This document shows positions 4,983-37,295 of a DNA stretch of 40,009 nucleotides, in pieces. The translations under genes were made by a program, and so were the position numbers. Origin of the DNA: a virus; the IMG/VR virus record IMGVR_UViG_3300049847_000422, positions 1 to 40,009 of that record. One strand, written 5' to 3'. The notes under the pieces were generated by a model. That model was not told the DNA's origin, did not search any database, and saw only the letters and a program-made list of their open reading frames with translations. Positions within the stretch are counted from its first letter, which is position 1; each line of letters opens with the position of its first letter.

Positions 4983-6149
4983 ATGGCAAATCATTCAGTA
5001 GCCCTCGTGCTTAAAACGAAGGATAAGGGGGTAAATCCGGTATGTACTATATACGTACGGATTACAGTTAACAGAAAGCAGACCTTTATATCAACCGGTA
5101 AGACGGTTAGAAGGGATGAATGGGATGATAGGGCACACCGAGTGAAGGATCACCCGGCAGAACAGCAATACAATGTCGCTATCTACGGGTTGTACAATCA
5201 AGTGTTGCAAAATGTCAATCTCCACAATCTGGAAAGTAAGGCTTTTACGGCTAAATCACTCAAGACTTCCTTTGATTCTAAAGACCAACACAACATCTTT
5301 AACTTCGTTGAAAAGTACACCCAGGACGTTAAGAGTAAACGTGGTAGTGGCACAATTACCAATTACGATAAACATATCAGAAAACTAGAAGAGTTTCATG
5401 GAAGTAGAAACTTAACCTTTGAAGAGATTGATGTTGAATTTTTAAATCGGTATGAGCATTACTTACGTACACTGGGTAAGTTGGGTAAAACCGAGCATGG
5501 ATTAGGTAATAATTATGTACATCTGTTGCTTAGAGCTTTGCGTACCTTCTTCAATGCGGCAATCAAGCAAGGGATTATATCACACTACCCTTTCAGAACT
5601 TACGAGTTTCCTACTTATCAGGCACCGATTAAAGACTATCTTAACTTAAGTGAATTAGCACTGTGGGAAGAATTTGCAGATACCACCATCAATCCTGTGT
5701 GGAAGCAAACTGCTGTTTATTTCCTTCTAGGCTGCTATACAGGGCTGCGAATATCAGATTGGCAAGCATTCTCCCTAGATAAACACATAGTCGATAACAG
5801 GCTCCTATTACGTGCCATGAAGAATAAGGAGTGGGTAGGGATGGAGATAAGCAGACCACTGTCCCGAAACCTCATTCGGATTAAGCAAACCCCTTTGACA
5901 ATTGAAGAGCCAACCCTTAATGAAAAGTTAAAGGTCATAGCCAGTAAACTGGGGATTAACAAGAGAATTACCTCTCACAGTGGTCGCCATACATTTGCAA
6001 TAACCTTATGTGCAGACCAGGGGGTTAGCTGTGAAACGTGTGCAGAGCTAATGGGTATCACTGTGCAGACCTGTGTAGACAACTACTACCGGGTAACAAG
6101 GGCAAAATTAGATAGAGAAACCAGTAATGCCTGGAAGGATTTGAAATAA
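4983..6149 (+). CDS. int: Tyrosine-type integrase (Bacteroidota phage/transposon type)
   Basis: 388 residues in the usual order: an N-terminal arm-binding domain (VRITVNRKQTFISTGKTV with DEWD), a SAM-like core-binding domain (about 105-205), and a C-terminal catalytic domain. Visible active-site parts are TGLRISDW (Arg at about 255), HSGRHTFA (His and Arg at about 332-336) and the nucleophile region NYYRVT (Tyr 368 or 369). The enzyme cuts and rejoins DNA at att sites to integrate the phage. The usual LGH before the nucleophile is replaced by MGI, so one supporting histidine seems to be missing. It is followed immediately by a small DNA-binding-like gene. Family assignment is secure; the site is unknown. 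Confidence 0.92.
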   Translation: MANHSVALVLKTKDKGVNPVCTIYVRITVNRKQTFISTGKTVRRDEWDDRAHRVKDHPAEQQYNVAIYGLYNQVLQNVNLHNLESKAFTAKSLKTSFDSKDQHNIFNFVEKYTQDVKSKRGSGTITNYDKHIRKLEEFHGSRNLTFEEIDVEFLNRYEHYLRTLGKLGKTEHGLGNNYVHLLLRALRTFFNAAIKQGIISHYPFRTYEFPTYQAPIKDYLNLSELALWEEFADTTINPVWKQTAVYFLLGCYTGLRISDWQAFSLDKHIVDNRLLLRAMKNKEWVGMEISRPLSRNLIRIKQTPLTIEEPTLNEKLKVIASKLGINKRITSHSGRHTFAITLCADQGVSCETCAELMGITVQTCVDNYYRVTRAKLDRETSNAWKDLK

Positions 6150-7358: not shown

Positions 7359-8186
7359 TTAAGCTAAAACTACAACCTTTTTAGTGTAGTCAGCTGTACG
7401 AAATCCAAACCTATCCCATTCAGGATGGGAAAACTCCATCATCATTACAACAGATTGATTTTCAGTGAAAATGACAGGCCCGTAATAACTACCATAATAG
7501 TCATCATACGCTGCTTTTACCTGAATTTCCCACATAAAAGGGTCGTTCGGATCCAATAGCTTTTCAGCTTTAACCGGGCCAAATTTTGGGATACCTTTTA
7601 TGTTGTCTGTGGTATCCCCAGTTAAAATCTGCTTATACAGGTTTCGAAGAGCTTCAGTAGCACTTAGTGTAACACTAACGCCAGTTCTATAGTCGTAATG
7701 TTCGCCTGGGGTTTGCTTTAAGTCTTTGTCAGGCGAGCATATAACAACATCCATTTCAAACCCCTTAGCATGGATGCCGCGAGCTTTGAATTGAACTGCC
7801 ATTGCTACTACTACATCATCAGTCTCTAAGTGTTCAGGAGCACGAACGAACTGCCATTTGGTAATTAAACGATTCTCAATAATCGGTTTCCACTTAACTA
7901 CCCATTCAGGAGTCTCTGTCCTGTTACCTTTGTACGCAGCTACTTTGTAGATCTTCCTACGGAAATTACCTGCTGAACTTTCAGGCCCAATTACACCTAG
8001 ATAAGCACCTGCATTTAAGTTCCGAAACAGGTTATTTAGGATGTCATCCACAGCAATTTCCACTGCAAAATTATCCATATCATCCCTGTGGTTCCAACCT
8101 ACAATGTAACTGATTGAATCGCCATCAATTAGCAAACACTTATAAGAGCCTTGCTGCTGCGGCATTAATTGTGTCAAGTCTGTCAT
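7359..8186 (-). CDS. 5'-3' exonuclease / flap endonuclease
   Basis: 275 residues, like T4 RNase H and the 5' nuclease domain of Pol I. Acidic metal ligands are visible: LLIDGDS (D21, D23), LETDDVV (about 118-124) and SPDKDLKQ (about 150-157). The helix-3-turn-helix that grips double-stranded DNA is GDTTDNIKGIPKFGPVKA at about 190-208. The polymerase encoded at 22469 lacks this domain, so this separate protein would remove RNA primers and flaps, with the ligase sealing the nick. Its start overlaps the winged-helix gene by 47 bases. Confidence 0.9.
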   Translation of the reverse strand: MTDLTQLMPQQQGSYKCLLIDGDSISYIVGWNHRDDMDNFAVEIAVDDILNNLFRNLNAGAYLGVIGPESSAGNFRRKIYKVAAYKGNRTETPEWVVKWKPIIENRLITKWQFVRAPEHLETDDVVVAMAVQFKARGIHAKGFEMDVVICSPDKDLKQTPGEHYDYRTGVSVTLSATEALRNLYKQILTGDTTDNIKGIPKFGPVKAEKLLDPNDPFMWEIQVKAAYDDYYGSYYGPVIFTENQSVVMMMEFSHPEWDRFGFRTADYTKKVVVLA

Positions 8187-32934: not shown

Positions 32935-32960
32935 TTTTATTTAGTTTAAAGTTTAAAATG

Positions 32961-33047
32961 TGAGAAGGTCAGGATTCGAACCTGAAAGCTTTTATGCAAA
33001 GCATACGCCATCTCGGCGTACTTGGTTACCATTTTCAACACCCTCTC
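32961..33047 (-). tRNA. Class II tRNA (long variable arm), anticodon uncertain
   Basis: Acceptor GAGAGGG / CCTTCTC pairs fully (one G-U), discriminator A. The T-arm TCAGG-TTCGAAT-CCTGA is perfect. D-arm TTG..CAA with GGTAAC fits. Then a TACGC-CGAGATG-GCGTA hairpin and a GCTTT-GCATA-AAAGC hairpin follow, giving 87 bases. By position the first is the anticodon arm and the second the variable arm, as in Ser/Leu/Tyr tRNAs. The centre would be AGA (Ser), but base 33 would be G instead of U. It may be a misread of the arms, a special tRNA or a decaying one. Confidence 0.72.
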
Positions 33048-35969: not shown

Positions 35970-36149
35970 TTACTCATGCGCCATAATATTGGCCATGCGG
36001 TTTTCTTCATGTTTGGTAACTCGTAAGTCTAAACTAACTTTGAATTTTTCCAAAACTTCAAGTTGGTCTTGCAAGTCAAGATGAGCAGTTTGTTCATTGA
36101 ACATTTCATCAAGCACTTTAAGTGTGTTGTTTACTTTTCTGTTTGCCAT
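35970..36149 (-). CDS. Small helical protein between tmRNA and methyltransferase
   Basis: I chose ATG at 36149 (MANRKVNNTLKVL, 59 residues) because the frame upstream runs through the tmRNA 3' end. The protein is a charged helix (LDLQDQLEVLEKFKVSLDLRV) with heptad-like spacing, so a coiled-coil dimer is likely. Function unknown. Confidence 0.6.
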   Translation of the reverse strand: MANRKVNNTLKVLDEMFNEQTAHLDLQDQLEVLEKFKVSLDLRVTKHEENRMANIMAHE

Positions 36150-36160
36150 AGTATAGGTTT

Positions 36161-36578
36161 TGGTGGAGACGAGGGGAATCGAACCCCTGTCTCTGAAAGT
36201 GCTCATAATACCTTTCTTACATGCTTAGTCATACTGTACACAGTGACGAGAGTTGATCTGTTGTTGTTGATTACGGTCAACATTAAGCCCCACAATGCTC
36301 CTATGGAGACTGAGCACACATCTGATCAGTAAGGGCGCACGGTTAAGTGAACTCCACCACCTCATTTACGTTGAGGAACGTAGGCTTTTGGTCGTCTGTA
36401 AGCTGACCAGGCTGCGTACTACGCGGCTTCTGCCATGCGTACTGCTGCGAAAGCACCATTGATGATGCTTGCACCTACTTCTTGACGTGTTGCGTCTATT
36501 GTTTAGAGATTGTTTGCCTTCTCCAAGGCTTGCATGTGATACTACCAACATCATCCAGATCAATCGCCTGTCGTCCCC
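36161..36578 (-). ncRNA. ssrA: Transfer-messenger RNA (tmRNA)
   Basis: 418 nt. The 5' end GGGGACG pairs with 3' CGTCTCC, followed by A and an encoded CCA (36161-36163). The T-arm AGGGG-TTCGATT-CCCCT is perfect. After a D-like loop comes CATGCAAGCC, matching the conserved tmRNA 5' region. The tag frame lies between TAA and TAG (stop at 36419-36421). With the resume codon GCA at 36493 the tag has 24 residues, starting ATRQEVG and ending AFAAVRMAEAA. tmRNA with SmpB frees stalled ribosomes and marks the unfinished protein. The phage copy is complete, so probably functional; no smpB is seen in this window. Confidence 0.9.
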
Positions 36579-36583
36579 ATATA

Positions 36584-36607
36584 CCAGCAGAGCATAAGCT
36601 CTGCTGG
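36584..36607. promoter_or_regulatory. Perfect hairpin just upstream of the tmRNA
   Basis: CCAGCAGAGC / GCTCTGCTGG with a 4-base loop (10-bp stem), between the DUF6011 gene stop (36611) and the tmRNA 5' end (36578). No T-run follows on the minus strand, so it is more likely a processing or protection element of the precursor RNA than a terminator. Confidence 0.5.
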
Positions 36608-36610
36608 ATA

Positions 36611-37057
36611 CTAACTAACCGATTGCTTGGGTACTACAATACCGAGCTTCTTTCTACAGATTGGGCCAAGCCCATATTCAATTGAGATAGCGTCTGTAAG
36701 TGGTCTATTGCAGTAGGAGCAATTACCATCATGCAGAATGTGCACCGTGTCCGGAACTTGCTGAAACATGATTCTCTTCCACATATTTGCAAATGCGTTT
36801 GTAGCATCAGCCCGAACAAACGGTACATTGGGGTCTTTTGTGTACTTAATAAACACATCTCCCCGTATATATCCGATTAAATCATCACATACTGTCACCC
36901 AGAAGCTTGCCCCATTAACTTGAACATTATCTCCTAACCTCTGACGTGCAATAGTGAAGGTGAACTGGTTGTTTGTGATTGTATTGTGAAATGTAACCGT
37001 AGCTCTGCCCCCAGTGAGGTAAGCATACGCTTTCTCTTGTATGACTCTGTTAGTCAT
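36611..37057 (-). CDS. DUF6011-domain zinc protein
   Basis: I chose ATG at 37057 (MTNRVIQEKAYAYL, 148 residues), directly after the stop of the membrane gene. The C-terminus has the DUF6011 pattern GNCSYCNRPLTDAISIEYGLGPICRKK with C113, C116 and C134, a small zinc knuckle common in phage and mobile-element proteins. The N-terminal 100 residues are beta-rich with RATVTFHNTI and GASFWVTVC segments. Role unknown. Confidence 0.68.
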   Translation of the reverse strand: MTNRVIQEKAYAYLTGGRATVTFHNTITNNQFTFTIARQRLGDNVQVNGASFWVTVCDDLIGYIRGDVFIKYTKDPNVPFVRADATNAFANMWKRIMFQQVPDTVHILHDGNCSYCNRPLTDAISIEYGLGPICRKKLGIVVPKQSVS

Positions 37058-37058
37058 A

Positions 37059-37295
37059 TCAAAACCATTTAAGCCAAGTGGGAACCGGACGTGCTGCCCA
37101 ACGTGCATCAAGTGCTAAGTTGAGGAGTGATACAAATCCAATTACTACCAGTGTAGCCCAGGAGAATGCGAGGCACACAAAGCGTAGTATGAAGTTTTCC
37201 CAGTTGTAAGTAACAGATTTTCCATCGAGCTTGCGCACAGTGAGATATGCAAGTAATGCCCCAATAAGGTAGACGCTCAAGAACAGTGTTGACAT
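37059..37295 (-). CDS. Small membrane protein with two spans
   Basis: 78 residues from ATG at 37295 (MSTLFLSVYLIGALLAYL). Hydrophobic helices at about 3-19 and 37-60 (FVCLAFSWATLVVIGFVSLLNLAL) flank a polar loop; the C-terminus is RPVPTWLKWF. An inner-membrane protein of unknown function. Its stop is one base before the next start. Confidence 0.6.
   Translation of the reverse strand: MSTLFLSVYLIGALLAYLTVRKLDGKSVTYNWENFILRFVCLAFSWATLVVIGFVSLLNLALDARWAARPVPTWLKWF

Follow-up and report, generated by a model that had tools for sequence, protein, structure and literature searches.

A phage-borne one-piece tmRNA whose long tag is conserved in a family of viral contigs

Phage tmRNAs are known but have seldom been explained. 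A locus on the minus strand of the window (the whole stretch of DNA analyzed here, a 40,009-base IMG/VR virus contig) raises the question of what such an RNA, and the tag that it encodes, does for a phage. The best explanation as a whole, to which we assign a probability of roughly 0.68, is that the locus encodes a functional one-piece phage tmRNA with a family-specific tag and that it serves ribosome rescue and probably the disposal of tagged fragments.

A first-pass annotation made from the sequence had proposed an intact phage ssrA gene and suggested running both ARAGORN and the Rfam tmRNA model. ARAGORN called positions 36161-36578 (minus strand) as a tmRNA with the tag ATRQEVGASIINGAFAAVRMAEAA closed by a stop codon, and Rfam RF00023 returned identical coordinates over the full length of the model (positions 1-374, E = 1.9e-23). 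Rejection of the fold by the covariance search, which the annotation had named as decisive against the gene, was not seen (65.4 bits versus a gathering score of 47 bits). The following elements were located within the gene.

36161..36578, minus strand: tmRNA (ssrA) gene, one-piece, 418 nt (ARAGORN; Rfam RF00023)
36552..36578, minus strand: 5' half of the tRNA-like domain, with acceptor strand GGGGACG, D loop, and start of P2 (ARAGORN secondary structure)
36504..36529, minus strand: pseudoknot PK1, stem 1 GCCU/AGGC and stem 2 UGGAGA/UCUCUA (pair counts, homologues)
36419..36493, minus strand: tag frame, 24 codons, ATRQEVGASIINGAFAAVRMAEAA (ARAGORN; frame conserved in homologous viral tmRNAs)
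36161..36199, minus strand: 3' half of the tRNA-like domain, with T arm, CGTCTCC, discriminator A, and encoded CCA (ARAGORN secondary structure; sequence)

Read from the window sequence, the acceptor stem GGGGACG/CGUCUCC contains G3.U70, the alanine identity pair, and the T arm is canonical, with an encoded CCA. The G3.U70 pair was also present in all seven aligned homologues (described below), among which both-sided changes in acceptor stem P1 could be read by eye. When PK1, which lies upstream of the resume codon in the window tmRNA, was written as a pseudoknot over nine sequences, 93.3% of cells were paired and both sides had changed in 20 cells. The resulting covariation score was 0.728, compared with 0.313 for shuffled sequences (0 of 500 shuffles scored as high), and as a control, a one-base shift of the partner halved the pairing. 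A permuted two-piece tmRNA was excluded because ARAGORN and Rfam both give the linear one-piece order. We consider a functional phage tmRNA well supported.

The first-pass annotation had left the tag at either 24 or 17 residues, the shorter form resulting from resumption at 36472. The longer alternative was retained: translation resumes at GCA (36493-36491, context AAUAGAC|GCA) and stops at TAG (36421-36419), giving 24 residues that end in MAEAA. The 17-residue option was unsupported, as the homologues keep the longer frame and the same resume position after a conserved C at -1. Since TAG ends 6 of the 45 listed window genes under the standard code, readthrough of the tag TAG by recoding is unlikely, and it is read here as an ordinary stop.

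Three features flank the tmRNA.

36611..37111, minus strand: upstream gene of the DUF6011 family (Pfam PF19474, 45.4 bits; phrog_20259)
36584..36607, minus strand: 10-bp perfect hairpin, CCAGCAGAGC-ATAA-GCTCTGCTGG in plus-strand letters (read from sequence)
35970..36156, minus strand: small downstream ORF (MANRKVNNTLKVLDEMFNEQ...), starting 4 nt past the encoded CCA (ORF list, sequence)

The small ORF, whose listed start at 36206 falls within the tmRNA, had no PHROGs match. Since both it and the DUF6011 gene lie on the tmRNA strand, the arrangement fits co-transcription of all three. The hairpin lies 5 nt upstream of the mature tmRNA 5' end with no T run after it, and is possibly a processing signal.

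The most striking feature of the locus, which was absent from the first-pass annotation, is that the tag is conserved across divergent phages. A loose 3' pattern scan of viral contigs led to L176, for which ARAGORN gave a tag plainly related to that of the window, and scans with conserved elements then extended the set to 15 other IMG/VR contigs with a homologous tmRNA. With the window, the family comprises 16 contigs and ten distinct tag forms. Its tags are 24 to 27 residues long in a conserved frame, with the core GASII-x-MAFA and the consensus RVEEGASIIxMAFAxxExAxAA; the window has a tag of this length, a GASII-x-MAFA-like core, and the shared 5' element TGNNNNTGGTAGNATCACATGCNAG. Read at the same frame position, the tags of the homologues are as follows.

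L281: VDHQSVGASIINMAFASVELAVAA
L176: DNTISRQEEGARIINMAFANVEMAVAA
L196, L234: ANKTANLDFANNVINMAFSNAPVALAA
L286, L288, L291: ANKTANFDFANNVINMAFANAPVALAA
L198, L236: AKTKSERVAEGGAIIASLFAGRVAVAA
L282, L284, L285, L290: VKSQSERVEEGASIIAMAFASELALAA
L283: VKSQSERVEEGASIIAMAFASEYALAA
L287: VKSQSERVAEGEAILASIFATEYALAA
L289: AKTKSQRVEEGASIIAMAFSRVAVAA

In local alignments, the window tag scored better against the tags of L281, L176, L282, and L289 than 2,000 of 2,000 shuffles (P ≤ 0.0005), with weaker values for L286 (P = 0.007) and L198 (P = 0.04). The comparison with L287 was not significant alone (P = 0.49), yet L287 is identical to L282 at 16 of 24 positions. Estimates of dN/dS (Nei-Gojobori, last 24 codons, hence small samples) were 0.42 for window/L281, 0.24 for window/L176, and 0.09 for L281/L176. 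The simplest reading of these ratios is that selection acts on the tag peptide, and constraint at the RNA level could contribute. The last 17 residues of the family tags are hydrophobic (mean Kyte-Doolittle values of 0.98 to 1.67; three short tags from bacteria gave -0.13 to -0.43), and a comparison of a family tag with PDB chains found no similarity to any. Because the related contigs differ from the window in their polymerase and most other genes, the tmRNA is common to otherwise divergent phages.

Eight of the nine family loci searched passed the Rfam tmRNA cut-off. They include L212, a more distant 27-residue case (DNTTVELSNYTFESLVAELEGSELELA, frame start uncertain) that has the RNA 3' element common to the family and a tag too divergent to align with the family tags. 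The only locus that did not pass, L281 (IMGVR_UViG_3300028392_000477), is split at 7387-8053 by a group I intron of ~667 bp (RF00028, 86 bits) in the tmRNA T loop. This intron contains a LAGLIDADG-like ORF, and joining the exons on either side, GGGGTT and CGAATCCCC, restores a normal T arm; comparable tmRNA introns are known in bacteria (PMC11915505), whereas the L281 case is in a phage contig. A conserved insert of ~65 nt (GTGTGAAGACTAGACG..ATTTTGG..CGTGATTTTAGAGCTTACACAGTAGTATGCCAAT) between the tag and the 3' half was present in L196, L198, L286, and their copies and missing from other family members. Several of the 3' ends of L176, L196, L198, L282, and L286 lack a full encoded CCA (ACGG, ACTG, ACAA), so CCA addition by the host would be needed, and the discriminator of L176 is U. 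A ClpP-family frame with one stop codon was observed in one related phage record (L294; G143:29636-30040); since ClpP was found in that related record only, we rejected a phage-encoded ClpP as a family feature.

Exact and protein searches found no close relatives of the window phage in the collections searched, and comparison of the whole tmRNA with named phages gave distant matches restricted to the T arm. The window encodes homologues of phage-type replication and lysis-inhibition proteins, with a DNA polymerase, Dda-like and DnaB-like helicases, a primase, a Sak4-like annealing protein, a DNA ligase, RIIA/RIIB, a C5 methylase, a tail-fibre end, and an integrase.

4983-6149: tyrosine integrase

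A genome scan with this integrase found nothing. The first-pass annotation had assumed a Bacteroidota host, which fits the gene starts: a Shine-Dalgarno-like motif is absent at 39 of 40 window starts, with depletion of G and a peak of A at -13 to -10, and the related contigs likewise lack such sites. Because Bacteroidota genes characteristically lack Shine-Dalgarno sites (PMC6847099), a host in this phylum is likely rather than proven. The comparison with host tags that the annotation had called for set the window tag apart. Among 66 tags called by ARAGORN in sampled genomes of the phylum, 64 end in [LM]AA and nearly all have 9 or 10 residues, the remaining 2 being apparent frame misreadings; the window tag has 24 residues and ends in EAA. 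The 5' signature of the family, with one mismatch allowed, was found in 0 of 396 Bacteroidota genomes. One Bacteroidota-phylum genome carries, beside its normal tmRNA, a second one with a GENNYALAA frame (G120:C1:772761-773172; L141); we set it aside, as it resembles a host copy in decay and its neighborhood lacks phage genes. On the minus strand of the window at 32960-33047, ARAGORN also called a tRNA-Ser with anticodon AGA that did not rise above the Rfam cut-off; this anticodon is rare in bacteria.

In the mechanism that we propose, the phage tmRNA, with its G3.U70 pair, would be charged with alanine by the host AlaRS. No SmpB was found in the window or in 17 related records, a weak negative given that most of these records are fragments; the protein was found in control bacteria and in four Bacteroidota genomes. 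Host SmpB would thus have to serve as the partner. In infected cells, the charged tmRNA would enter ribosomes that have stalled on broken mRNAs and would append the 24-residue tag to the stalled product, most likely for the purpose of ribosome rescue and disposal of the tagged fragments by host proteases. The hydrophobic core, probably retained by selection on the peptide, could act as a recognition element, so that the long tag would confer a protease or adaptor preference of the phage's own.

The suggestion of the first-pass annotation that -AEAA is a changed degron, through which tagged fragments could be spared, redirected, or mislabelled, fared less well. The window tag is indeed unlike host tags, but the Glu at -3 is peculiar to one copy and rests on a single metagenomic sequence: all nine other family forms end in A[VL]AA (AVAA or ALAA; this ending did not serve to define the family), and a single base separates the GAA codon of the window from the GTA found in L281 and L176. 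Most simply, the Glu would reflect either a derived one-nucleotide V-to-E change in the window lineage or a mistake in a single assembly. Faulty sequencing or assembly, or an unfixed variant, masking a true AVAA ending like that of the relatives, would account for the single-base difference in a lone assembly for which close relatives were not found; we consider this quite unlikely, since the adjacent codons show the synonymous differences expected of genuinely diverged sequences, and no further sign of error is seen in this part of the contig. If the Glu is real, it may weaken binding by ClpX, and tagged fragments could be protected from ClpXP, giving rescue without destruction, or be redirected to a different protease (Lon or FtsH, for example), which the long hydrophobic core could draw. 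A Glu at -3 is unusual among both the host tags and the family forms, and changing ALAA to ADAS strongly reduces degradation by ClpXP in E. coli (PMC8512704). However, the window tag retains the terminal Ala-Ala, which is the main contact of ClpX in E. coli ClpXP, where antepenultimate changes raise KM modestly (PMC7652416), and the homologues retain a hydrophobic residue before Ala-Ala, so selection in the family favors a degron-like end. Sparing of tagged proteins is thus a possible outcome but not the default reading, and we judge it unlikely, although Bacteroidota proteases may differ from those of E. coli.

Two further explanations dispense with a phage tmRNA that rescues ribosomes or with its phage origin. 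The RNA might hinder host trans-translation by titrating SmpB instead of performing it, as the tRNA-like-domain-only (TLD-only) tmRNA of phage DS6A inhibits tmRNA (PMC4131195), and the failure to find a phage SmpB would suit such a role. A pure decoy, however, needs no resume site, PK1, or conserved frame of 24 to 27 codons, all of which have been kept under selection, making interference very improbable. Integrases often target ssrA, and the contig encodes a tyrosine integrase, so a host ssrA could have been captured at a prophage attachment site; most IMG/VR matches to a generic tmRNA pattern carry the host-type tag ANDENYALAA. Yet the integrase is 30 kb distant, the tag and body of the window tmRNA are unlike those of host tmRNAs, and the family signature that is missing from the sampled hosts is common to other phage contigs. 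Capture is accordingly the least credible of these explanations, and we give it almost no weight.

Going beyond the main reading of a functional tmRNA that rescues ribosomes, Bacteroidota phages may keep a tmRNA lineage of their own in which the long hydrophobic tag serves as an address specific to the phage. Such a tag would direct proteins to one particular protease or adaptor of the host, or to a membrane or aggregation route, instead of the standard ssrA degron pathway, and the Glu in the window copy would tune it further. This idea is tentative and on balance improbable; if true, rescue in infection would be uncoupled from the normal disposal of tagged proteins. A conserved long tag unlike the sampled host tags argues that the tag itself matters to the phage beyond ribosome rescue, and the family supplies both a defined peptide motif for protease and adaptor tests in Bacteroidota and a search signature for further members.

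Phage tmRNAs are not new, having been encoded in 402 of 18,146 phage genomes (PMC9004378), and neither are long or unusual phage tags. Non-ALAA tags read here in other phages include AKNEELLAVA, ANTQLAVA, AKLNITNNELQVA, and ADNIDAEYEALCAEYALVTV, and a mycobacteriophage tag, ATDTDATVTDAEIEAFFAEEAAALV, is annotated; the emphasis of the first-pass annotation on a non-ALAA ending is weakened by how common such tags are among phage tmRNAs. In the limited literature searched, we found no published description of a family of tmRNAs in Bacteroidota-type phages that conserves a long tag. Homology of the tag to those of mycobacteriophage C1, Circinus, S-CAM1, and L216 was at best marginal by shuffling; L216 (IMGVR_UViG_3300032103_000228) is a viral tmRNA with an apparent 32-residue tag, ANTVNVDFAPSVAEADAVLARFGYVNAEAVAA, and an unrelated body. 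The DNA-ligase relatives L002 to L007 were dropped as a lead: L006 carries a tmRNA (L008) with a tag read as GNVEEKMAA, but it is not a close relative, since Shine-Dalgarno sites precede its genes (14 of 20) and the window DNA polymerase does not match it. MT836377.1 (tag DNKTVALAA), in which smpB is present, was also set aside; it is probably bacterial.

Compared with a standard one-piece RF00023 tmRNA, the window RNA has the full-length match, tRNA-like domain, PK1, resume site, tag frame, and CCA, but it scores 65 bits versus roughly 106 to 200 for most Bacteroidota tmRNAs, has an unusual D loop, GGCGAUUGAU instead of GGAUUCGAC, and encodes 24 tag residues. Bacteroidota host tmRNAs (GENNYALAA, ANDYSYAMAA, DNNYSYRLAA, and others) are the same RNA type and probably use the same translation machinery, but differ in their short tags with [LM]AA ends in nearly all cases sampled. 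The tmRNAs of mycobacteriophages Asterius, Janiyra, and their relatives are likewise phage-borne, with a long annotated non-ALAA tag (ATDTDATVTDAEIEAFFAEEAAALV, 25 residues), but belong to another host phylum, and tag homology was undetected (shuffle P = 0.4 to 0.8). Streptomyces phage Circinus (ADNIDAEYEALCAEYALVTV) and Bacillus phage G (AKLNITNNELQVA) also combine a phage-borne tmRNA and a divergent tag with no SmpB in the record, but their tags have no core in common with the family. Methylophage Melnitz resembles the window in carrying a complete phage tmRNA in an operon, although its tmRNA is a permuted two-piece form of alphaproteobacterial origin; this RNA has been proposed to maintain hijacked translation or to recycle host proteins (PMC9004378).
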